Below the pieces are notes generated by a model. That model saw nothing but the letters and a program-made list of their open reading frames with translations. It made no database searches and was not told where the DNA came from. Positions 6,013 through 28,782 of a stretch of 64,000 nucleotides of DNA are shown here, piece by piece. Numbering within the stretch: the first letter of the stretch is position 1; each line of letters begins with the position of its first letter. A program made the position numbers and the translations under genes. The stretch covers positions 186,001 through 250,000 of the forward strand of contig JAHDRN010000001.1 in the NCBI GenBank assembly GCA_018433245.1. The letters run 5' to 3'. Source of the DNA: Candidatus Proruminimicrobium quisquiliarum. Its GTDB lineage: Bacteria > Elusimicrobiota > Endomicrobiia > Endomicrobiales > Endomicrobiaceae.

Positions 6013-6041
6013 TTGATTTTTTTAAATAATGCCGCTATACT
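6013..6041 (+). promoter_or_regulatory. Promoter of the small membrane protein / giant protein operon
   Basis: TTGATT (6013-6018), a 17-bp spacer, then TATACT (6036-6041). Transcription would start near 6048, directly at the ATG at 6050. An earlier in-frame ATG at 6029 lies upstream of the -10 and so should not be on this transcript. Confidence 0.55.
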
Positions 6042-6049
6042 TACTGTGT

Positions 6050-6592
6050 ATGAATACGATCAATAGCACTTATTTAAGAGTGTTCGTTTTGTATTTTACA
6101 CTGCTTAGTTTGATAATAAGCTCTGTCGTTTTTTCTGTAGGCAACAGAAAAAATTTAAAAGAAATTATAATTTCCGATTCAATTATATCAGGTTTCTTTA
6201 CCGTTACGGGTATGTCAGATGAAATTATAAACGATATGATGAGTTCCGAAACTGCAGCCGCGCGCAAAGATAAAAATAAAGATGACGCCAGCCAGATAAA
6301 TAAAGAAATAAGCATAGCGCTGCCGGGATCGTCTGCCGCTTACCTTGAAAAAGAATATTCGGAAATACAGATTCTCAAAAATGTTAAAATTTTTAATGAA
6401 AGCATGATAACGGAAGTACAGTACCCGCTTAAAATACCGTATAACCGCTATTTGCTGTGCTTAATTATATTATCAGGTTTGATTTTTGCCGGTTTGGCAA
6501 GATCAGTGCCGGTTTTTTTTAATATAAAATTCAGAGAGCTTGTACCGGGATGCAAAGGTACAGGCTCTTTTTATTTACGGGTGCATATATGA
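6050..6592 (+). CDS. Hypothetical two-TM protein preceding the giant protein
   Basis: Not recognised. The 180-residue product begins MNTINSTYLRVFVLYF and has an N-terminal hydrophobic segment (about residues 9-30) and a second one near residues 135-155 (RYLLCLIILSGLIFAGLA). Between them is a roughly 100-residue, probably extracytoplasmic part rich in charged and Ser residues. The start at 6050 is preferred over 6029 because the -10 box ends at 6041. Its stop overlaps the next start in an ATGA, so the downstream giant protein is translationally coupled to it. This suggests the two work together as a membrane anchor or partner. No catalytic motif is visible. Confidence 0.6.
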   Translation: MNTINSTYLRVFVLYFTLLSLIISSVVFSVGNRKNLKEIIISDSIISGFFTVTGMSDEIINDMMSSETAAARKDKNKDDASQINKEISIALPGSSAAYLEKEYSEIQILKNVKIFNESMITEVQYPLKIPYNRYLLCLIILSGLIFAGLARSVPVFFNIKFRELVPGCKGTGSFYLRVHI

Positions 6593-9500
6593 ATTTTTTA
6601 AAGCAAATCATATCACTTATAATAATAAATTGTTTTTTATTCTCATTTGTATGCGGAGAATTAATTGCCGCTGAAGTTGCGGATATGAAAAATGAGGATA
6701 TGTACAAACAAATATTTACGGATTTTGTATTTCCGTATTCTTACGGCAAGATAACTGATTCGCATTTTGCTTCAACCGACAGATTAATAATAAATATACA
6801 AGATCTTCACTGCCATCCGGAAGTGCAAAAAAATATCAGTAATATCATAGAATTATTTGACAAAAAATACGGAGTTAAAAACATATATTTGGAAGGAGCA
6901 TACGGTGAAATTGATACGCAATGGCTGAAAACAGAATCATTGATAAATAAAAAGAATACTCTCGCGGATAAAATGATAGAAACCGGCAGATTAACGGGCG
7001 CGGAGTATTACAGCGTAAAAAGCGGCAGAACGTCAATCATAAAAGGTATTGAAGAAAAAGAAGCCTATCTTGAAAATTTAAAAAGATTAGGAACAATATT
7101 GGGAAATAAAGAAGAATCAGAAGTAATATTAAACGCAATAAATGAAGCTACGCAGAAATTGAAATCAAAATATTATGAAAGAAGACAGCTTAAATTGGAG
7201 GAGTTATCCGATAAATATGCAGAAGGGAAAATAGGCGCTGAAAAATATTTTAAATTAATGTCAAAACATATAGATAAATTAGGCATAGATTTAACAAAGT
7301 ATGAAAACACGTTAAATTATATGATGCTGCTTTCGGAACAAAAGACGCTCAATTTTGAACGGACGACAAAAGAATTACAGTCGTTGGTAATGATTTTAAA
7401 ACAAAAACTGCCTTATAAAACATATAAGATGCTGCTTGATTCCACGGATAATTTTTCAAAAATGGATAAATTATACTCATATTTAATCATAATAGCCAAA
7501 CAATATAATTTTAATCTTTCTTTGGAATTTCCCGAATTAAACAGATATTTTAAATATATAGAATTAAGCCAGAAGATAAATCCTCTTGAACTTGTAAAAG
7601 AAGAAAAAAAACTGGTAAACGAAATAAATACGAAATTTGCAAGAACAAAAGCCCAGAGAGAAATTGTTTTTCTGGTTAATTTTGGAAAGTATTTGGAAAA
7701 TTATCTGACAAATAAAATAACGGCTGAAGATTATGAATATTATTTGCAAAATATAAAAATGTATAAACAATTATGGAACAGTTATGTTGATACAAGAGTA
7801 TTATCATTGTTGGAACCGTATATGGATGAAGCCGATAAATTTTACAAAATAAACAGCGACAGAAATAAATATTTTGCCGATAATGTTCTTAACGGATCAG
7901 AAACGCTTCAAATAGTTCCGAATGAAGAAAAAAAAGACGGAGTAACGGGAATATTTGATAATATTGATAAAATAAAAAGAGTTGACGTCATAGTTACCGG
8001 CGGATTTCATACAGAAAGCGTATCAAAAATATTAAAAGGCAATAATATCTCATATATAGTTATAACCCCGAACGTTACGGGAGGAACTAAACTTGCCGAA
8101 AAAACGTATTACAAAATAGCCGCAGAGCAGAGCAAGATATCATTTCAAACTTTAGCCGTGATGGCATTATCTTTGCAGGTAATGCTTTTAAAAGAGCAGG
8201 GAATTCCTTTGGAAATAATAAAAGAAACTCTTACTAAAAATTCCGGCAGCGGCTTAATACCTTTGATAGAATCGGCGTTTTACTCCAAAACGCAAATCAG
8301 CGACAGAGAGCGTTTGATAGAAAAATTGAAAGAGTTGATGAAAGAAACGAAATTGGCCGGAATACTCAATTTTGATCAGACCGGTAATATAAAAGAAGAA
8401 GTAGCCGGGCTTTTGGACATAGATGTTTCTTTATTGGAATATATTGACGCCGAAAAATTAGTCGCCGCATGGGAATATAATGATTCGGATTATATAAAAA
8501 ATTTAATAAAAAATGCTCAAATCAGGCAGGATTACTCTTCAGGTAATGATTATCTGGGACGTATTTTTTCGGAAATAATGATACTGTTTAATGAGATAAA
8601 AGAAAATAATGCGATAAATTGCGCGGTTGAATCAGTGTATTCCGTGTTAAGTCCTGCCGCAAAACCGAATAAAATTATTTTGGCGTTTATAATGAGACTT
8701 ATTGACAGAGTTGAAAAAATAAATTCTCCAAACGGATACAATTCATTATATTCAATTTGGCGGACAATTAAAAATCAGGGATATGAATCGTATGCGGCCG
8801 ATGCTGAAATATTGAAACAGGCTGTTTCAACGGGCAGACCTGTTATATTGGCTGTATCATCAAATGCGATTAAAGGAGAGATTAACCACTATATTACGGT
8901 TACATCCCTAAAGGGAACAAAAAGCGTAATCATACATGATATAAATTACGGCGACAGAATTGTTTCTGAAGAAGATTTATCAATAATACTGGAAAATGAG
9001 TACGGCTGGCAACAAAACAAAAATATCTTAGTAAGTGAAATTTTGAAAGATGAATCTCCGTTAACGGCTGAGAAGATGAAACAAATTTACGGAGCCGATA
9101 AACAAAACATTTCTTTTGAAGAGAAAATGCAGGCGGTTTATTCAGATACCGGGGCGCAGGGTTATGTTGATATTTATCTTGAAGATATGATTTCTGACGA
9201 AAAAATATTTATAGAGACTGTCCGGCAAGCGGTTGAATCAAATAAATTAATAGTTATAAGAATGTTCAGGAAAAGTTATAATCAAGATTTGCTTACAGTT
9301 GAAGAACTGACGAAAAAATACAAAGAAATAAAAAAAATGATTAAAAGTTTTTCAAATCTTGAAAAACTCTTCCCCGATTTGAAAAAAGTTTTTGAAATGC
9401 CGTCCGCGTACGGCGCCGGTTTCTTTTTAAGCGAAATGCTGAAAAATGCCTTTGTGCACGGCAATCAAGGTAATGATGAACCGATAATAATGCATTTAAA

Positions 9501-12500
9501 AATTAATAAAAATAGAGATATAAGCGATTTGTCGGTTTATAATATTCAGAAAAACTCTGAACTTGATCCTGTAAGAAAAAAACTTGCGGCAAAAGCCGGT
9601 TTAACCGGATACCATATAGGCACCAGCATAATGCTGCTTAATTATTTTAGGACATTTAAATCCGGAGTCCGCAGTCTGGATGGAATAAAATTTTATGCGG
9701 CGACATCTCAGCTGAGAAAAAAGACTTCTGCGCTTACCGAGAAACAGAGCGCGGCAATTAATCAATTTTTTGAAAAACATGCGATTTTGAAAAAAACCGC
9801 GGTAACAATAATGGAAATATCAGCGACTCTTTTAAAACTTACCGGACTTATAATTCCTTCTCTTTTGTTAATGTCTATGTTCGGGACTCATGCCGGCATA
9901 TTTATAATACTAAGTTTGACGGCCGGAACAAGTTTTGCGCTGACTTTAATACAGGATAAAATAAATAAAAAATCGGGTCAAATAAAAAACCAAAGTTTTA
10001 AACAAAAAGCTTCCGCATGGCTTCAGATAACGCAAGTGGCTTCAATAATAATAATAGAATGGCAGATACAATTTGTTTATGATATGTTTTTAAGAATAGT
10101 TTCGGCTTTTGCCGTTCGGGAAGATAAATTATTTGAGGAACAAATAAACGTAGGCGGAGTTATATCTTTAAAAAAAGTAAAAAATGTATCTCAAAACATT
10201 TTAATGAATATTGTTTTCAATATTCTTAATGTCGGAGGCTACAGTGAAGATGAAATCAATAAAACAATGACTCACAAAATGGGAGAATGGGTTGTTGAAT
10301 CATACATAAGTCCGGCAATGATAGTAAAGTGGCTCGCCGGAATATCAAGTTTATCCGTTCCGTACAGAGAATACGGGGAGGCGGCAAGCGAAAGACATAC
10401 AGAACTAAATGAAAATGTAGGACCCGATAATGCCGCGATAGAAAAAACAAAAGAAATTTTAACGGAATTCAGGCGCCAGTTTAAAAGCAATGTGGATTAT
10501 ATTGAACAATTTTTAAATATTGCCAAAGAGCGTGAACTGACAAAATCAGAACAAAATTTACTGACGAGTCATATGAATATAGTGGCGACGGCTCTTGAAG
10601 TTTTGTTGATGGATGCCGTATATTTTGATTCTTACACAAGAGGGCATGCCGAACATGTTGCGGCGAACTCAATTATTATATATGACAATATACCGGAAAA
10701 AGTAAAGGAAAAATATCCGCCGTATTTTGCGAGTTATATAAAAATGGCCGCATTGCTGCACGATATAGGTAAAAACAGCATACCGAACCATGTTTTAAAT
10801 AAACCCGGAGCATTATCGGATGCGGAATACAGCTTAATGAAATTACACGGACTGATAGGGGCCGAGATTCTTGCTGAAACAGGTTTTGGTTTTTTATCGG
10901 AAGACGTAAATGCGCATCATGAAAAATATGACGGTACTGGATATGCTTCCGGAATTTCCGGAGACAAAATTTCATTAGCCGCGTCAATAATAGCTCTTGC
11001 CGATTCTTATGATTCAATGAGCAGAGACAGAGTTTACAGACAGGCTTTGCCGAAAAGAGAAGTTATCAGAGATATAAAAAATAACAGAGGCAAACAATTT
11101 AACCCGGCGGTTGTTGACGCATTTTTCAGAGCCGTAAATATATTATCTGAAATCAGAGATAAAGAAGAATTAAATCTGAAAAAGAAAATATGGATAGCCC
11201 AGATAATACAAACGGAAATACTTAACGGGCAAATGAGTCCGGATGAAATAGCCGATTTGACGGTACTAATGACGAAAGATCTCACATTTAAAGATAAAGA
11301 TGCAATATGCAATATGCTTGTGTTCAAAAATGACGGCGGTAAAAAAAGCGACAGATATAAAAGATTCAAAATCGGTTCCGATACCTACTTGGTTTACGGA
11401 ATTTTTGACGGCAGTTTAAAATACGGGCAGTACAGATTTGAAGTATTGAAGGATGCTATATACGGCGGACTTACGTCATCGGAAAAGAACGCGAGAATTG
11501 ATTTTGAGAAAAATACAATAACAAGAGAATGGCTTGAAAAAATAACAAGAGCATGGTCCCAGAAAGCAAAAAAGAGATTTATGAAGATGTTAAAATTAAA
11601 GAATGTAGATCCGTCCGTATATGAATTTATTGATTCCGAAACAAAACGTGACTATTATGACGAGCTTACATTATCCGAAATAATTGATGTTTACGCTGTT
11701 TTAGGAGATATTGAAACGGGCGCGGGAAATGATGAATTGAAATTAAAAATAGCAAATTTTAATATTATACAGCAAAAACTGGTAACAAAAAAAATAATGG
11801 ATAAATTTTTAGCTCTCAGTCCTGAAATTCAGAGTCAAATTTATATGGTTATAGGAGCTGTTATTTTTGAAAGCGTCAAATATTTAAACAATGACGATAT
11901 TTCGGAAGAGGAATATGACAATATAATAAAAACATTTATTGCAAACGGTTTAAATTATAAAATAACGCTTGAAACCGTGCAAAATTTAAATTTAGGGCCG
12001 GAAGGCGAAATTATAAAAGAAATACTGACGGAAGCATTCGGACTGAAAACATTTCCGGGCGGGTTTTATGCAAAACATCCTGAAAGAGACGGAACTGAAA
12101 CAGGCAGAGAAATGATAAGAGAGGTTATGAACAGTCAAAACGCCGATAACGGTAAAAAAATAACGCTTTGCGTAGTATCTTCGGCGAAAGATAATTTCAG
12201 CGCAGTCGCGTCTGTTATACTCGGTTATGTTTTAGAAAAACAAAATATTAAAAGAAACAACGTGGTTATAAAGCCTGCCGGCGTTTATTCTGCGGCTGAT
12301 AAGAAAAGCGCTTATGAAGAATATGGCGGTATACTTGATGAAAAAGGATATCCTGCCGGAAATATTGAAGAATCTGAAATTTTTCCTTTTTTGGATTATT
12401 ATAAATTTGATTATTTTTTGGCTGTGGGAGAAGAATACAGGCAAAATCTTATCAATACTTATAATATCCCGTATGACAAAATTATTCTGATCGGAGAACT

Positions 12501-14520
12501 GCTTGCGGGATCAGGAAAAGTATCCGTCCAAAATCCCTACGACGATAAAATTTCCAGAAGAAGATTTATTGATTTGCTGCAGAAAATATTTGAGAAGTCT
12601 TTTAATATAGAAAATTTGGAAACAAAAATAGAACAAAAACAGGATAAGACGCAGCCGTCCGAATCCGGATTTATTAATTTTTTTATTAAAGCGTTTACGG
12701 CTTTCAAATCTTTAATAAAAATAAGTTCCGTATCGGACTTATCAATAAAGATATACACATATACCGAATTTAGCAGAAAAACAATAAAAACAAAAGAAGA
12801 TTTTGACATAAAAACATATTTGCTTATAGTTGACGATGAACAACAGGCTTACGAATTAAGAAGACAGGGATTTAATGCCGTACAAATAGAATATGCAAAA
12901 CATCCTCGCGGAGAAAAAATAGGACCGGTAATGGAAAATCAGAATAACGGTTCTACGGTAAGAGCCGTATGGGACGAGAACTCCAAGAAAATTTACGTAT
13001 ATTCAAATTCCGAAGACGGATTGGACGGCGTTAATATACGCGAAGTAAAAGAAGCGCTGCAGCGTCTGCATAACGAGGGCAAAGAATTTGAAGCTTTTAA
13101 AGAAATAACAAAAATAATACTGCCTGATTCAAGTTTGAGAGTAAGCTCCGTAATAAATAAAATATTAAATAAGGAAAAGGATTCAATAACCAGACCTAAC
13201 AAGGAAATCAATTTGGATATAAGAACAAACAGAGCGAATTTTGAGGCTTTGTGCAGGGAGAATTTAAGAAACGGTATACGTGTTATGACAATTAGCGCCA
13301 AACAGGCTAAATTAAATAAAAAAACAATAAAAACTTATCAGCAATCGGGAATGATGTTTGTATTGGCCCCAACCGATGACGAATTAGCCGAATATATAAT
13401 CCGTGAAAGCGAAAAACTTGAACTTAACGGGGTTGTATTAAGTATGAAAGGAATGTCTGAAAGCCGTCAGAAAAAAATATTGGAGCAGGCCGGTGATTTG
13501 TTAGTCAGAAGTATGCTAAATAAAAAACAAACAGGAGAAAGCCAGATATATATTGAAAATATTACGGAGGGATTTTTCGGACTTGATATTTATAAGGAAT
13601 ATGGAATAGTACCTGTTTTTGAAAGCATACATGAGGCAAAATCGTATCTTTCCGAAACCGGGAAAAAATATGCGGTAAGAATATCGGAAGATATAAGCGC
13701 CGCGGATATGGAACAAATATTAAACAATGACCATGTTTACGGAATAATGGCAGATGAAAAAGGAATTGAAAAAATAAGAAACAGAAGCGTTATAACGGAT
13801 ACAATAACGGAAATATTTAAACCGAAAACAGCCAAACAATTATTTGAAACTGAACAATGGAAAATACGAAACGCCGCGCAAAAGTTTGATGTTCCGGATA
13901 TAGAAAGCGCTTTAAAAAATGACGGCGTTTTGAGCGGATTCCTTTCCGAAATTGATAATTTCCTCGGAGACGAAGAAAAAACAGAAGACGCCGTTACGGT
14001 TCTTTTAAACGAGCAAAATTTGTTGACCGGTTTTACAAGAGCCAGAGTAGAGCATTTTATGGAAGCTGGGAGATATGCGGAAGCGGTAGGATGCGTAAAA
14101 GCCGCGGTTATGAATTCCGTTGAACAAAAAATAATTACAAAAGAAATGAATATAAGCGAATATAATAAGTATATGGCAGGACAATTCAGGGATGCGAGAG
14201 CTATCCTTTTAATAAAATTGATAATGGCCGGAAAGAATATTGAAAAGTTGAAAGATACTGACGGTTTTATAGATTCGGATATGACCGCCGCGGAATATTT
14301 AAACGGAGTTGTTCTTAAAGAAATCAATCAATATATAAGGGAAATATTGAACGAAGGTTATTCTGTAATGCCGCCTGCAGACGAACGAGAAACGGAAACT
14401 GCCGTTGATATGTTTAATAAATTTGACTTGCTGTCGCAGGATTTATTTAAACAGGAAGGTATTGTTGAAAGAGTTAAGATATCAACATTTGCGGTTAAAA
14501 ACATATTAGGCGCCGCATAA
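6589..14520 (+). CDS. Giant 2643-residue multidomain envelope/signalling protein with C39-like, GHKL and HD-GYP domains
   Basis: Start chosen at the ATG overlapping the previous stop (ATGA); it is followed by a signal-peptide-like stretch (MNFLKQIISLIIINCFLFSF). Domains recognisable in order: a TraB/ChaN-like segment (QDLHCHPE near residue 70, SDRNKY near 424, TGGFHTE near 471); a peptidase-C39-like domain with candidate triad C678 (NAINCAVES), H767 (NHYITV) and D784 (HDINYGD); a GHKL ATPase-like patch (SEMLKNAFVHGN near 948) whose DxGxG motif is not evident; hydrophobic segments around 1064-1124 and 1146-1174; an HD-GYP domain with H1353, HDIGK 1391-1395 and HHEKYDGTGY 1443-1452, where the usual Pro is Ala1453; a low-molecular-weight tyrosine-phosphatase-like fold near 1859-1971 without the Cys-x5-Arg loop; and a C-terminal alpha/beta region. 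The HD-GYP call is firm (cyclic-di-GMP phosphodiesterase family); the others are by pattern only. The overall role is unknown. Confidence 0.75.
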   Translation: MNFLKQIISLIIINCFLFSFVCGELIAAEVADMKNEDMYKQIFTDFVFPYSYGKITDSHFASTDRLIINIQDLHCHPEVQKNISNIIELFDKKYGVKNIYLEGAYGEIDTQWLKTESLINKKNTLADKMIETGRLTGAEYYSVKSGRTSIIKGIEEKEAYLENLKRLGTILGNKEESEVILNAINEATQKLKSKYYERRQLKLEELSDKYAEGKIGAEKYFKLMSKHIDKLGIDLTKYENTLNYMMLLSEQKTLNFERTTKELQSLVMILKQKLPYKTYKMLLDSTDNFSKMDKLYSYLIIIAKQYNFNLSLEFPELNRYFKYIELSQKINPLELVKEEKKLVNEINTKFARTKAQREIVFLVNFGKYLENYLTNKITAEDYEYYLQNIKMYKQLWNSYVDTRVLSLLEPYMDEADKFYKINSDRNKYFADNVLNGSETLQIVPNEEKKDGVTGIFDNIDKIKRVDVIVTGGFHTESVSKILKGNNISYIVITPNVTGGTKLAEKTYYKIAAEQSKISFQTLAVMALSLQVMLLKEQGIPLEIIKETLTKNSGSGLIPLIESAFYSKTQISDRERLIEKLKELMKETKLAGILNFDQTGNIKEEVAGLLDIDVSLLEYIDAEKLVAAWEYNDSDYIKNLIKNAQIRQDYSSGNDYLGRIFSEIMILFNEIKENNAINCAVESVYSVLSPAAKPNKIILAFIMRLIDRVEKINSPNGYNSLYSIWRTIKNQGYESYAADAEILKQAVSTGRPVILAVSSNAIKGEINHYITVTSLKGTKSVIIHDINYGDRIVSEEDLSIILENEYGWQQNKNILVSEILKDESPLTAEKMKQIYGADKQNISFEEKMQAVYSDTGAQGYVDIYLEDMISDEKIFIETVRQAVESNKLIVIRMFRKSYNQDLLTVEELTKKYKEIKKMIKSFSNLEKLFPDLKKVFEMPSAYGAGFFLSEMLKNAFVHGNQGNDEPIIMHLKINKNRDISDLSVYNIQKNSELDPVRKKLAAKAGLTGYHIGTSIMLLNYFRTFKSGVRSLDGIKFYAATSQLRKKTSALTEKQSAAINQFFEKHAILKKTAVTIMEISATLLKLTGLIIPSLLLMSMFGTHAGIFIILSLTAGTSFALTLIQDKINKKSGQIKNQSFKQKASAWLQITQVASIIIIEWQIQFVYDMFLRIVSAFAVREDKLFEEQINVGGVISLKKVKNVSQNILMNIVFNILNVGGYSEDEINKTMTHKMGEWVVESYISPAMIVKWLAGISSLSVPYREYGEAASERHTELNENVGPDNAAIEKTKEILTEFRRQFKSNVDYIEQFLNIAKERELTKSEQNLLTSHMNIVATALEVLLMDAVYFDSYTRGHAEHVAANSIIIYDNIPEKVKEKYPPYFASYIKMAALLHDIGKNSIPNHVLNKPGALSDAEYSLMKLHGLIGAEILAETGFGFLSEDVNAHHEKYDGTGYASGISGDKISLAASIIALADSYDSMSRDRVYRQALPKREVIRDIKNNRGKQFNPAVVDAFFRAVNILSEIRDKEELNLKKKIWIAQIIQTEILNGQMSPDEIADLTVLMTKDLTFKDKDAICNMLVFKNDGGKKSDRYKRFKIGSDTYLVYGIFDGSLKYGQYRFEVLKDAIYGGLTSSEKNARIDFEKNTITREWLEKITRAWSQKAKKRFMKMLKLKNVDPSVYEFIDSETKRDYYDELTLSEIIDVYAVLGDIETGAGNDELKLKIANFNIIQQKLVTKKIMDKFLALSPEIQSQIYMVIGAVIFESVKYLNNDDISEEEYDNIIKTFIANGLNYKITLETVQNLNLGPEGEIIKEILTEAFGLKTFPGGFYAKHPERDGTETGREMIREVMNSQNADNGKKITLCVVSSAKDNFSAVASVILGYVLEKQNIKRNNVVIKPAGVYSAADKKSAYEEYGGILDEKGYPAGNIEESEIFPFLDYYKFDYFLAVGEEYRQNLINTYNIPYDKIILIGELLAGSGKVSVQNPYDDKISRRRFIDLLQKIFEKSFNIENLETKIEQKQDKTQPSESGFINFFIKAFTAFKSLIKISSVSDLSIKIYTYTEFSRKTIKTKEDFDIKTYLLIVDDEQQAYELRRQGFNAVQIEYAKHPRGEKIGPVMENQNNGSTVRAVWDENSKKIYVYSNSEDGLDGVNIREVKEALQRLHNEGKEFEAFKEITKIILPDSSLRVSSVINKILNKEKDSITRPNKEINLDIRTNRANFEALCRENLRNGIRVMTISAKQAKLNKKTIKTYQQSGMMFVLAPTDDELAEYIIRESEKLELNGVVLSMKGMSESRQKKILEQAGDLLVRSMLNKKQTGESQIYIENITEGFFGLDIYKEYGIVPVFESIHEAKSYLSETGKKYAVRISEDISAADMEQILNNDHVYGIMADEKGIEKIRNRSVITDTITEIFKPKTAKQLFETEQWKIRNAAQKFDVPDIESALKNDGVLSGFLSEIDNFLGDEEKTEDAVTVLLNEQNLLTGFTRARVEHFMEAGRYAEAVGCVKAAVMNSVEQKIITKEMNISEYNKYMAGQFRDARAILLIKLIMAGKNIEKLKDTDGFIDSDMTAAEYLNGVVLKEINQYIREILNEGYSVMPPADERETETAVDMFNKFDLLSQDLFKQEGIVERVKISTFAVKNILGAA

Positions 14521-24289: not shown

Positions 24290-24318
24290 GAATATGTGTT
24301 TTATATTTGGGAGGAATG

Positions 24319-27300
24319 ATGAAAGTCAAATTGTTTTTACTTGGAGTTTTAGGGGTTATTTTTTGTTTTTCGGCAAATATTCTTGCAGAAGATTTAAAAA
24401 TAGAAGAAGGTAAAAATGATTTGCTGCTCAAATTTAAAGGAACTGGAAATATATGGTATCCCGCAGGAGACGATCAGCAGATTTTTGATAATGTAACTAT
24501 CGGTGCCGGTACCACAGTTAGACTTGAAGATCAATTACAGTACGTTCTTATAAGTTCAGAAACAGAGACAACAACTTCACTACGAGAAATTGAATATATA
24601 GTTGATGATTCAGACCCTTCCGATATAATAACAGATAAAAGAACAGTACAGGATGTTACAAATACAACAACTCTAAAATACAGAAAAGATGAAAATATAG
24701 CAACATTGTCAGTTGCACAGTCCGGCGTTATAACATTAAATGTCGGTAGCGGACTTGCCATAAGAAACCAATACAGTTTAGTTACTTCAACACAGGATGT
24801 TTCTCTAAAAGACATTAAGTCTGGTGATATAGTAAGAATTGACGACGGTAATTTAACAAATCAATTAACTGATTTGTACTCATGCAACGGATATTATAAC
24901 AGAGAAATTTTAAAATTGGTAGATTACGATGATCTTTTTTCCGGTACCATAGTATTCGGTTCTGGCGAGGGATTAGAAAAGGAAACAGTTTTGACATTTT
25001 TACCAACTTCAACAAGAGAATCGGCAGAACCGTTTGGAGTTTTGCCGACGCCTCCGGAACCTGAAGTTATAGACCAGCCTACAGGAGCAGTAATTACCAA
25101 TAATGTTGTTGTAGAGGATAAATCTGAAGCACCAAGAAATAATGATGTCGCATGGATGTTTAATGATTTTCAGGTAGATACCAGCAGAGCTGTTTTAGAT
25201 GTTATAGGCACAAAACAATCGGTTGCAAGTTTGTATGAAGATCCCAGAGCAGTTGTTTTGTTAGGAAATATTTCAGGAGACGGAACAATAGTAAAAAGAG
25301 GCGGCGGCAATATGTATCTTGCCGGAGACGCAACAGGACTTACCGGTTTAAAAACAGGTTTCTCCTGGAATGTAGAGGACGGTTGGTTAGTTGTTGCCGA
25401 ACAAAACAATTTAGGTTCCGGCGCTGTTTATGTCGATTCTATCGGAACACTTGGATTGCTTGGCGGAGAAATAGCTTCTATTAAAATAACGGATTTTACA
25501 AATTCTGTTATATCAGGGGCTATATATGCCGATACTTTTGCAAACACTTTTACAAATGATATGACATTTAACGGCGGAGAATTAGCATTGAGCACCGGAA
25601 CAAAAAAACTTACAGGAGATATATTTACTGCCAGTCAACTAGGAACAGCCAGATTTTCATTGACGGGAAATGATAGTTATGGGGCAACATTAATACTTGA
25701 AGGTTCAAATAATGCAAGAGAGTTTTTTATCGGTTATGAAGGGATAGGAAATTATTTATTGACGGATGTGAGCGGGCTTGCAAGTGAAAAAATTTCAGCT
25801 TCAGGTTCAGCAAGTTCTGATCAGTTTACCTTGGTTTTAAACCAGAAAACAGATGCGCAATATTCCGGAGATTTAGAAGGAGAAATGTATCTGCATAAAC
25901 TCGGTATAGGAACATTAACTCTTTCAGGAACAAATACATATTCTAAAGGTACATATATATCTGAGGGAGCTATCGCTCTTACAGATGCAGAGTCTATAGG
26001 TACGGGACACATAATGTTTAATAACGGGGTAAGAGGCAGTTCTTCTACTTATGCCTCGCTTAAAGTTATTGAAGCAACATCCGGTAATGTATTGTTAAAC
26101 AACACAATATATATAGATGAGGGCGCAATATTTAATGTTTACGGCAACCAGACTCTTACTCTTTTAGGAGATATACGCAGATATGATTCTAAACCCGGAT
26201 ATGATGCTGATTTTATAAAAACAGGTTCTGGACTTTTGGAAATAGCCAAAAGTTCAACCACGACAAATGTTAAAGATATAAATATATCAACTTTTACGGT
26301 AGCCGACGGAGATTTTAAATTGAGCGAAGGAGTTGTTCTTGCTTCTGCGTTTGATTTGAAAGGAGTAGATGCAAATCTTATAATGGAAAAAGATTCAGGG
26401 ATTACAAAAACAATAAATATATCTAGTGGTTCTCTTACGATATACAATCAATCAAATATTTCATCGGCGACAGTTAATTTTTTAAATACGTCAACCACGA
26501 CACTTTCTAGTTTATATGTTTCAAGTAACACAGTTTTATCTACATCAACTTTAGTTAATAAAATTAATGTAGAAAAAGGTTTAAATTTTGTAAATGACTG
26601 CAATATGACTGCATACGCTAACGCTTTTAATTTTGTATCAAACAGTAGAAATACCATATTACAAAAATCAGGTACAGGTGATTTTACATTTAATGTAGGT
26701 AACAGTACACCGTATAATTTAGGGGAACTTTTCGTTAATGAAGGGCAATTTTCATTTGCCTCTACTACTGTTTCAGGTTCTTCAGTAACGGTTAATATTT
26801 CAACAATAGTTGTTGACGGCGGAATACTTGCGTTAAAACAGGGAACATATTTAACATCATCCCAGGCGGAAGTAGAAGTAAAAAACGGCGGTATCGGAAT
26901 ATATGATGAAACAAGCATAGATCCGGCTCTCTTATTAAATTTCAGCGGAACTGATCCTAATAATCTGGCAAGACTTATAGTTGAAAAGTCAGGCGCAAAT
27001 CTTGTAAGCAATATAGTTATATCAACAGGATTAATAGTTCAAAATGAAGGAGCTCTTACTCTTACAGGAACGAGTATAGTAGGAAGCAGCGGTATATTCG
27101 GAAAAGACGGAAATGGAACAATGACGATAGCCGATACCGATGATTTTAACGTCGGAGAATTAAGACTTTTAACCGGCATGATGAATATAAATAACAGCAC
27201 AATAACTTTAAATACCGCTTCAATAACAGGCGGAACTCTTAACGTAAGAAACGATTCCGTTTTTAATGCCACAACCACAAATATCCAAAATGCGGTTTTA

Positions 27301-28782
27301 AGAGGATTCGGCGAAATAAACGGAACTGTAAACGCGAATACGAATTCCGTTATACAGGCCGACGGCGATGTTGATAACGAAATAGGAACTATGACGTTGG
27401 GTTCAATAAATTTTAATACCGGCTCCACTTTAAGAATTGACGTCAACAGCAGCGAACAGTCGGATTTGATAGATGTTGTAAATAATGTTCAAATAGGCGA
27501 CGGAGCAAATCTTTATGTAAACGTTATCGGCGATGAATCGGAATATGCCGACAAAAAAACATATCAGATTATTACGGCCGGAAATTCGCTCAGCATATTA
27601 AATCCCGCAAATATAGGAATTTTTAATACTGAACTCAGCAATTTAAGATTGATTTCAAATCTTTATAGATCCGGAAGGTCAATATTTTTATCAATTTACC
27701 AGGCGTTTTCTGAATATGAACTGCCTGGCGCCACAAAAAACCAGCAGGCGATGCTTGACGTTTTAAATTCAATACATGCAAATTACGAGGATTCAATGCA
27801 GGATACTCTTAATAAAATTGACGAAGCATATCTTTCCGGTCCTGCTGAATTTGTAAACGCGATGCAGGATTTATCAGGAATGTTTTATGTAAATTCTTTT
27901 GAAGCAAGCGCTCTTTTGTCAAAAGTGAATATGGTTTACAACAGGTTGGATAATATAGAAAGTACGCAGCACAGAATATGGGGACAGGCTTATACCAACA
28001 ACAACAGCGTTTCGGAAAACAACTATAATCCTAAATTTGAAAATAATGTTACCGGAATGATTATGGGTTATGATATGCTTCAGGAAGACGATTCTCTTTT
28101 CGGTTTTTCGTGTTTTTACGGAACAGGCGAATTAAAACAACTTAATGATAAAGCGGATGTGGCCGATTTCGGCGCAAATGCGTATACCGTATATAATTAT
28201 GACCAGTTTACCGTTAAAGGACTTGCCGGAATCGGAATTCAGAATTATGATGCTACAAGAACGCTGAATTTTATAAACGGCAATACGATAAATACTAAGT
28301 ATACAGTTAATGTTGTTAATATTGACGCAGAAGGAACTTATAATTATGAAATAAATTCTTATCTGATGCTGAAACCTTTTGTCGGCTTGAATTTTGCCAT
28401 AGTTTCAAATGATTCTTTTCAGGAAAACAGCATTTATGAACAGAATTTGAAAATAGACGCAAAAAGTTACACAAAGTCTGAAGTAAGAGCGGGAGTAGGG
28501 CTTGCAAATAATACAGCATCTAAATTTAACTGGCATATTTCGGCATTTGTAAAACAGATTGTGGACGGCGAAAAATCAACAATGACGGCAAGTTTTGTAA
28601 ATGTTCCGGATGAAAAATTTGTAATAGAAGGAACGGAACTTCCTAAAACTTCAATATACGGGAATCTTGGCTGTTCTTATGATATAGGATTTAATGTAAA
28701 CGTATTTGTTGATTTATCGTCAAATATGGGGTCGGGTTTAAATTCTCAGATGGGAACTGTCGGCGCGTTGTACAGATGGTAA
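24319..28782 (+). CDS. Autotransporter (type Va secretion) with beta-helical passenger
   Basis: Outer-membrane autotransporter of 1487 residues. The start is set at 24319, since GGGAGGA lies just upstream and overlaps earlier in-frame codons; ATG 24316 is the alternative. A signal peptide is evident (MKVKLFLLGVLGVIFCFSAN, ILAED). The passenger (about residues 25-1190) is Ser/Thr/Asn-rich and contains autotransporter-associated repeats such as KLGIGTLTLSGTNTYSKGTY. Towards its end it has a conserved GSTLRIDVNSSEQSDLI stretch. The last roughly 270 residues (RIWGQAYTNNN onward) form the beta-barrel and end in LYRW with the typical terminal aromatic. The passenger function, adhesion or surface layer, cannot be assigned. 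A strong terminator follows. Confidence 0.9.
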   Translation: MKVKLFLLGVLGVIFCFSANILAEDLKIEEGKNDLLLKFKGTGNIWYPAGDDQQIFDNVTIGAGTTVRLEDQLQYVLISSETETTTSLREIEYIVDDSDPSDIITDKRTVQDVTNTTTLKYRKDENIATLSVAQSGVITLNVGSGLAIRNQYSLVTSTQDVSLKDIKSGDIVRIDDGNLTNQLTDLYSCNGYYNREILKLVDYDDLFSGTIVFGSGEGLEKETVLTFLPTSTRESAEPFGVLPTPPEPEVIDQPTGAVITNNVVVEDKSEAPRNNDVAWMFNDFQVDTSRAVLDVIGTKQSVASLYEDPRAVVLLGNISGDGTIVKRGGGNMYLAGDATGLTGLKTGFSWNVEDGWLVVAEQNNLGSGAVYVDSIGTLGLLGGEIASIKITDFTNSVISGAIYADTFANTFTNDMTFNGGELALSTGTKKLTGDIFTASQLGTARFSLTGNDSYGATLILEGSNNAREFFIGYEGIGNYLLTDVSGLASEKISASGSASSDQFTLVLNQKTDAQYSGDLEGEMYLHKLGIGTLTLSGTNTYSKGTYISEGAIALTDAESIGTGHIMFNNGVRGSSSTYASLKVIEATSGNVLLNNTIYIDEGAIFNVYGNQTLTLLGDIRRYDSKPGYDADFIKTGSGLLEIAKSSTTTNVKDINISTFTVADGDFKLSEGVVLASAFDLKGVDANLIMEKDSGITKTINISSGSLTIYNQSNISSATVNFLNTSTTTLSSLYVSSNTVLSTSTLVNKINVEKGLNFVNDCNMTAYANAFNFVSNSRNTILQKSGTGDFTFNVGNSTPYNLGELFVNEGQFSFASTTVSGSSVTVNISTIVVDGGILALKQGTYLTSSQAEVEVKNGGIGIYDETSIDPALLLNFSGTDPNNLARLIVEKSGANLVSNIVISTGLIVQNEGALTLTGTSIVGSSGIFGKDGNGTMTIADTDDFNVGELRLLTGMMNINNSTITLNTASITGGTLNVRNDSVFNATTTNIQNAVLRGFGEINGTVNANTNSVIQADGDVDNEIGTMTLGSINFNTGSTLRIDVNSSEQSDLIDVVNNVQIGDGANLYVNVIGDESEYADKKTYQIITAGNSLSILNPANIGIFNTELSNLRLISNLYRSGRSIFLSIYQAFSEYELPGATKNQQAMLDVLNSIHANYEDSMQDTLNKIDEAYLSGPAEFVNAMQDLSGMFYVNSFEASALLSKVNMVYNRLDNIESTQHRIWGQAYTNNNSVSENNYNPKFENNVTGMIMGYDMLQEDDSLFGFSCFYGTGELKQLNDKADVADFGANAYTVYNYDQFTVKGLAGIGIQNYDATRTLNFINGNTINTKYTVNVVNIDAEGTYNYEINSYLMLKPFVGLNFAIVSNDSFQENSIYEQNLKIDAKSYTKSEVRAGVGLANNTASKFNWHISAFVKQIVDGEKSTMTASFVNVPDEKFVIEGTELPKTSIYGNLGCSYDIGFNVNVFVDLSSNMGSGLNSQMGTVGALYRW

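Follow-up and report, generated by a model that had tools for sequence, protein, structure and literature searches.

Very long open reading frames (ORFs) have been described in Omnitrophota, where they are poorly conserved and contain few annotated domains, and a role in attachment or predation has been proposed for them (PMC10066038). The giant ORFs of Omnitrophota and Elusimicrobiota are a standing puzzle, as they look unrelated to each other and offer few recognisable domains. Here we analyzed a giant gene of Candidatus Proruminimicrobium quisquiliarum, a member of the family Endomicrobiaceae in the phylum Elusimicrobiota, which lies in a window of 64,000 nt (positions 186,001 to 250,000 of the forward strand of contig JAHDRN010000001.1, assembly GCA_018433245.1). 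The contig spans 433 kb and the genome 1.94 Mb. The ORF at 6589..14520 of the window on the + strand comprises 2,643 stop-free codons and is translated into a giant mosaic protein of 2,643 aa. Its N-terminal head, its C-terminal tail and the product of the gene upstream make a large set of giant ORFs recognisable as one family. This family of gut, rumen and sediment Elusimicrobiota has apparently not been described previously; the literature that we searched contained no paper on it, and the word "giant" is absent from the Endomicrobia genome paper PMC11257099. Judging from the sequence comparisons, we consider the chances about even that the protein is an exported envelope or surface member of a chassis family, in which fixed ends hold interchangeable cargo.

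The conserved ends and the upstream gene

A congeneric second species encodes a near full-length homologue that is 64% identical across residues 3-1496 and 58% identical across residues 1478-2643, and conservation along the whole length rules out that the giant ORF is a chance frame. The orthologue is divided over two ORFs in the assembly of the second species (locus L098), which may reflect a sequencing frameshift. An alternative in-frame ATG is present at 6550. The start at 6589 is the better fit, because it agrees with the conserved signal sequence of the family and with the ATGA overlap between the giant gene and the gene upstream.

The signal sequence (residues 1-26; 6589..6666, + strand) is common to the family, and C15 in the middle of its hydrophobic core is kept in 26 of 29 heads. 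A lipobox at this cysteine was ruled out, as the preceding residue is variable and hydrophobic residues follow. Next comes the head (residues 44-525; 6718..8163, + strand), for which AlphaFold returned a confident model with a predicted local distance difference test (pLDDT) score of about 90 for most of residues 50-500. The five best VIA matches of this model were two entries of EreC, ChaN, an EreA-like protein and HopBA1, with Z scores of 7.0-8.0 over 153-171 residues (EreC, 8.0; ChaN 2g5g, 7.9; EreA-like 3b55, 7.2); such scores are weak if taken alone but gain support from the agreement among the matches and from Pfam ChaN (PF04187), which matches heads of divergent members from other classes. 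In a 4,094 aa ORF of G106 contig 8 and in G264 contig 25, for instance, the matches from the head search and from the PF04187 search overlap. Pfam TraB/ChaN gave no match on the 2,643 aa protein or on 25 heads searched singly, and the head profile found nothing significant in a sequence search of solved structures. Profile-profile comparison of the heads with ChaN proteins yielded a weak E value of 0.08, and the divergent heads reached 0.003. Residues D72, H74, E102 and H474 (GGFH474) are invariant across the 25 heads, where H74, E102 and H474 would correspond to the two active-site His motifs and the Glu of the superfamily, and the model places an all-helical insertion of about 270 residues within the head (157-425; 7057..7863, + strand). 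Since the best structural matches are concordant, the model supports a fold of the ChaN/EreA/TIKI type at the superfamily level, and the TraB/ChaN-like segment named in a preliminary description of this DNA was right at that level.

To compare the tails, family members were read to their natural ends, and 60 distinct C-termini were set against a background of 257 complete non-family ORFs with lengths of 250 aa or more. The pattern [LIMVF]-x-[ASTC]-[AG]-COOH was found in 49 of the 60 family C-termini and in two of the 257 background ORFs (Fisher P 3e-44, which is only indicative given possible residual kinship between the clusters described below; the contrast is what counts). The corresponding figures for an L-x-[ASC]-A end are 44/60 and 1/257. 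Ten of the 11 exceptions still end with A-A, A-G or a one-residue variant, leaving one clear exception that ends with V-S-P-K. Over their last 320 residues, the family C-termini form 31 clusters without detectable relation (phmmer, E 1e-3), which rules out that the tail is simply part of one homologous C-terminal domain, and an [AS][AG] end is present in 29 of these 31 clusters. Nor is the tail general in the genome: outside the giants, the strict pattern matched two frames of 12 and 27 codons.

The family tail consensus is A-[IV]-[RK]-A-[ILM]-L-[SAG]-A-A, and the 2,643 aa protein carries this signature as FAVKNILGAA-COOH (residues 2634-2643; 14488..14517, + strand). This tail terminates a helical module (residues 2406-2643; 13804..14517, + strand) that is also C-terminal in about 11 other giants. 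When the clusters were aligned at their ends, a hydrophobic stretch at -41 to -29 gave way to a spacer of mostly charged residues; closer to the terminus, positions -11, -8, -5 and -4 are hydrophobic and position -7 is basic. Thus, the signature spans about 45 residues and consists of a hydrophobic helix, a charged spacer and a terminal amphipathic helix ending with L-x-A-A.

The transfer-messenger RNA (tmRNA) of the same genome (L178, contig 21) was found by an Rfam match and not reported by ARAGORN, and its tag was read by hand as ...GFGAMPIAA. The P-I-A-A end fits a local taste for A-A ends and is not proof of it. The tail could be a simple degradation tag like that of tmRNA, in which case the giants would be short-lived under C-terminal proteolysis. 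This explanation draws on the hand-read tag, whose end is ...M-P-I-A-A, and on the degradation of SsrA-tagged exported proteins by Prc-type proteases (PMC6686036). We regard it as improbable, as the conserved Leu at -4, the basic residue at -7 and the hydrophobic stretch at -41 to -29 exceed the needs of such a tag, and as it would be costly to make very large proteins merely to degrade them. We tentatively put forward processing or quality control at the tail as the likeliest function of the terminal residues.

The gene directly upstream (6029..6592, + strand) encodes a protein of 187 aa with one predicted transmembrane helix near each end, and its stop codon overlaps the start of the giant gene in the ATGA. 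The protein matches no Pfam family. Its homologues lie directly upstream of a giant in 13 other loci, all from the subfamily closest to the 2,643 aa protein; this number is an upper figure, as some loci may represent one gene in two assemblies or collections. These homologues share the motif YP[IL]KIPF...LLLL..LF..L.RS[IV]S.

Distribution of the family and its mosaic interior

The relatives were found in a named genome collection by an alignment query, a raw protein query having found none, and many of them come from fragmented metagenome assemblies. In its own genome, the head (residues 1-535) occurs at nine places including this protein, one of which is cut by a contig end, and the tenth match of the search is a stand-alone HD-GYP protein. 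The uncut head-bearing frames measure 1,546-4,821 aa, some of them running to a contig end, and the giant pieces seen amount to about 76 kb or 3.9% of the genome, counts that are based on searches and sequence stretches. Of the 95 genomes of the class, 50 carry the head, with ten or more copies in several genera; across the phylum it is present in 69 of 340 genomes. Giant proteins of this kind had been described as rare, which is wrong for this lineage given the nine heads in one genome and up to 73 matches per genome elsewhere in the phylum. In Elusimicrobiota beyond the class Endomicrobia, there are genomes with 19-73 head copies (e.g. G106:C16:152380-153108), on ORFs of up to 13,472 aa.

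The distribution bears on whether the giants are effectors that are injected into protist, gut or prey cells or placed on their surface, where the cargo would act. The relatives in Endomicrobiaceae and Endomicrobiales include records whose names refer to rumen samples or termite symbionts, so that the lineage is partly gut-associated; the matches, at the fold level only, include the effectors AvrPphB, RavD and Mcf for the papain-like part and HopBA1 for the head; and the attachment or predation role proposed for the Omnitrophota giant ORFs (PMC10066038) points in the same direction. However, giants are also common in sediment-type genomes. Heads are mostly missing from a large genus with reduced genomes (g7), in which the copies, where present, are few or broken (five stops in G063) and which is probably the flagellate-endosymbiont genus Endomicrobiellum, whose members would live inside the host cells. 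A single-contig genome from Endomicrobiaceae likewise has no giants, and we linked no secretion system to them. Delivery as effectors seems unlikely to us.

Four modules of the 2,643 aa protein (C39-like, GHKL-like, phosphatase-like and C-terminal) recur in other giants in different order and company, and one ORF, which is at least 6,606 aa long, contains the GHKL-like module twice. Two relatives of 4,811 and 2,935 aa from two congeneric species align at both ends at 67-68%, and about 1,690 residues between those ends have no counterpart of that identity, a large part of them resembling another internal part at 31%. Pfam gave no match for most of the other family sequence. The 4,811 aa paralogue from the same genome (L081:1461-15896, contig 28) contains, behind the same head, a pyruvate phosphate dikinase ATP-binding domain (E 6e-96), a phosphoenolpyruvate-utiliser domain, an intact low-molecular-weight (LMW) phosphatase and CAAX-protease-like segments. 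A second giant subfamily (L078, L089, L116, L117, L130 and others) is predicted to have a block of about 8-12 membrane helices around residues 1700-2500.

The first middle module of the 2,643 aa protein is a C39/papain-like domain (residues 636-820; 8494..9048, + strand). Papain-like folds match its model at residues 718-820 with Z 4.3-5.6, and the orthologue retains Cys678, His767 and Asp784; pLDDT is low around the Cys helix. The Cys/His pair is apparently intact, and the C39-peptidase-like domain proposed earlier is supported as a probable papain-like fold, its sequence support being weak (PF13529, E 0.29). The following GHKL-like module (residues 835-1045; 9091..9723, + strand) retains the N-box, which reads E-x-L-K-N-A-F-x-H-G-N or near variants in six copies. 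The other nucleotide boxes are absent from the six copies compared, G1 (DxGxG) reading L-x-V-Y-N and the lid having no run of glycines. By its motifs, this module is a degenerate patch and not a demonstrated ATPase; of the GHKL-like patch noted before, the N-box is recognisable and the G1 and lid boxes are missing.

Two membrane helices are predicted to form a hydrophobic hairpin at residues 1071-1121 (9799..9951, + strand), in agreement with the membrane segments expected from the preliminary description, and a weak hydrophobic stretch follows at about residues 1150-1170. The HD-GYP domain (residues 1340-1525; 10606..11163, + strand) is certain from its sequence (E 1.6e-20, and 2e-30 to solved phosphodiesterases), as had been predicted. 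Every metal ligand is present (H1353, H1391/D1392, H1420, H1443/H1444 and D1475), and the GYP motif reads GYA. Among the family proteins examined, this domain was seen only in the 2,643 aa protein and its orthologue. The LMW phosphatase-like module (residues 1855-2010; 12151..12618, + strand) has lost the catalytic Cys, Arg and Asp, both the C(X5)R loop and the acid Asp being absent in this protein and in the orthologue. Comparison with the 4,811 aa paralogue, which keeps the intact loop C-SGNTD-R, bears out the earlier view of a tyrosine-phosphatase-like fold devoid of its catalytic loop, and the module is, as far as its residues tell, dead.

A TIM-barrel-like domain that had been overlooked is predicted with moderate confidence at residues 2206-2405 (13204..13803, + strand; pLDDT about 60-78), where VIA gave Z 10-12 to many (beta/alpha)8 enzymes. 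It comes from a second structure model that is poor overall (pLDDT 48), and our use of this model was restricted to the better barrel region. Foldseek found no match under 1e-3 for two multi-domain models, and a sequence search of solved structures with the C-terminal half returned nothing significant.

Cellular location and handling of the ends

Cys accounts for 0.30% of 261,225 residues of family ORFs (some counted twice). The remaining ORFs at these loci contain 0.92%, and among the proteins encoded in the window, Cys makes up 1.38% of those of the cytoplasm or inner membrane and 0.59% of four exported ones. Together with the signal sequence, this depletion suggests that the giants are exported, and the signal peptide and the envelope or surface location proposed earlier are supported by the same two properties. 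Elsewhere in the window, a 1,491 aa ORF at 24307-28782 resembles an autotransporter, in which repeats form the passenger and a barrel lies at the C-terminus.

The preliminary description suggested an envelope-located sensor or a self-processing surface machine. Self-processing may occur, given the apparently intact Cys/His pair of the papain-like part. In a sensor spanning the envelope, the head and the papain-like part would be periplasmic, an odd number of membrane segments near residues 1071-1170 would bring the chain across the membrane, and the HD-GYP domain would lower cytoplasmic cyclic di-GMP on an outside cue. The hydrophobic segments at 1071-1121 with the weak one at 1150-1168 and the complete set of HD-GYP ligands are consistent with such signalling. 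On the other hand, the restriction of HD-GYP, among the family proteins that were examined, to this protein and its orthologue leaves the shared ends of the family unexplained, and the GHKL and phosphatase modules are degenerate. Moreover, the residues after the hairpin are as poor in Cys as those before it (0.27%, or 4 Cys in 1,464, and 0.19%), likewise in the orthologue, which argues indirectly against a cytoplasmic HD-GYP domain. We consider signalling across the envelope doubtful, and the term "sensor" is not sustained, as no input-output pair is shown, the GHKL module has no nucleotide-binding boxes and the phosphatase is dead.

An exported chassis with fixed ends is the reading that we prefer, and several points weigh against it. 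HD-GYP domains and the pyruvate phosphate dikinase domain of the paralogue are normally cytoplasmic, and the stretch near residues 1150-1170 could be a third membrane segment that would put the HD-GYP domain inside. The tail is looser in other classes, where 16 of 19 sampled giants end with Ala and the ends mostly follow h-x-Q-A, as in I-Q-A and F-Q-A, or read S-S-A. Finally, the tail is tied to CtpA solely by what is generally known of proteases of the Prc type (PMC6686036).

A variable middle held between fixed ends implies shared handling of the two ends, which may be kept for being read by a common machinery. The head and the two-helix protein encoded upstream would aid export or anchoring in the inner membrane. 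The tail may be recognised by a factor of the PDZ or AAA+ type for maturation, release or quality control. Prc/CtpA-type periplasmic PDZ proteases read carboxyl ends, and those of the Prc type degrade SsrA-tagged exported proteins (PMC6686036). This genome encodes a single S41 protease of the CtpA/Prc family, with a signal sequence and the active-site motif GSASASE, which is a candidate reader of the tail. The middle modules would work extracellularly, with neighbours or host material as their targets, the catalytically dead ones serving as scaffolding. The sequences show that these interior modules are swapped, duplicated and left to decay between members. At the level of the phylum, we tentatively envisage an undescribed Elusimicrobiota system for export or display, with less than an even chance of being right: a constant signal-bearing head of the ChaN/EreA type, an upstream partner in some members, a constant C-terminal address tag with a dedicated reader of its own, and a freely exchangeable interior through which the cell could export nearly any domain within one chain of up to ~13,000 residues. 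The head, the tail, the upstream partner and CtpA provide handles on the export, maturation and use of the giants.

Comparison with known systems

The giant ORFs of Omnitrophota (e.g. Velamenicoccus archaeovorus, PMC10066038) resemble those described here in their great length, their occurrence as several per genome, the small number of recognisable domains and the relatedness of the lineages. Compared by description only, they are reported to be poorly conserved with few or adhesin-like domains, whereas the giants described here form one family, recognised by its conserved head and tail and by the partner encoded upstream. The head shares with the ChaN/EreA/TIKI-TraB superfamily its fold, the invariant H74, E102 and GGFH474, and the PF04187 matches of the divergent heads, but it differs in the helical insertion of ~270 residues and in being the fixed first part of chains of several thousand residues. 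As in polymorphic toxins and large modular effectors such as CdiA and Mcf, a constant front precedes variable modules; in the giants, however, both ends are constant and the variable part lies in the middle. The tail is comparable to C-terminal signals such as the SsrA tag read by ClpX and Tsp/Prc, in that a short A-A end is possibly read from the carboxyl terminus. In contrast to the SsrA tag, the tail of the giants is encoded in the gene itself and is longer (A-[IV]-[RK]-x-[ILM]-L-x-A-A).

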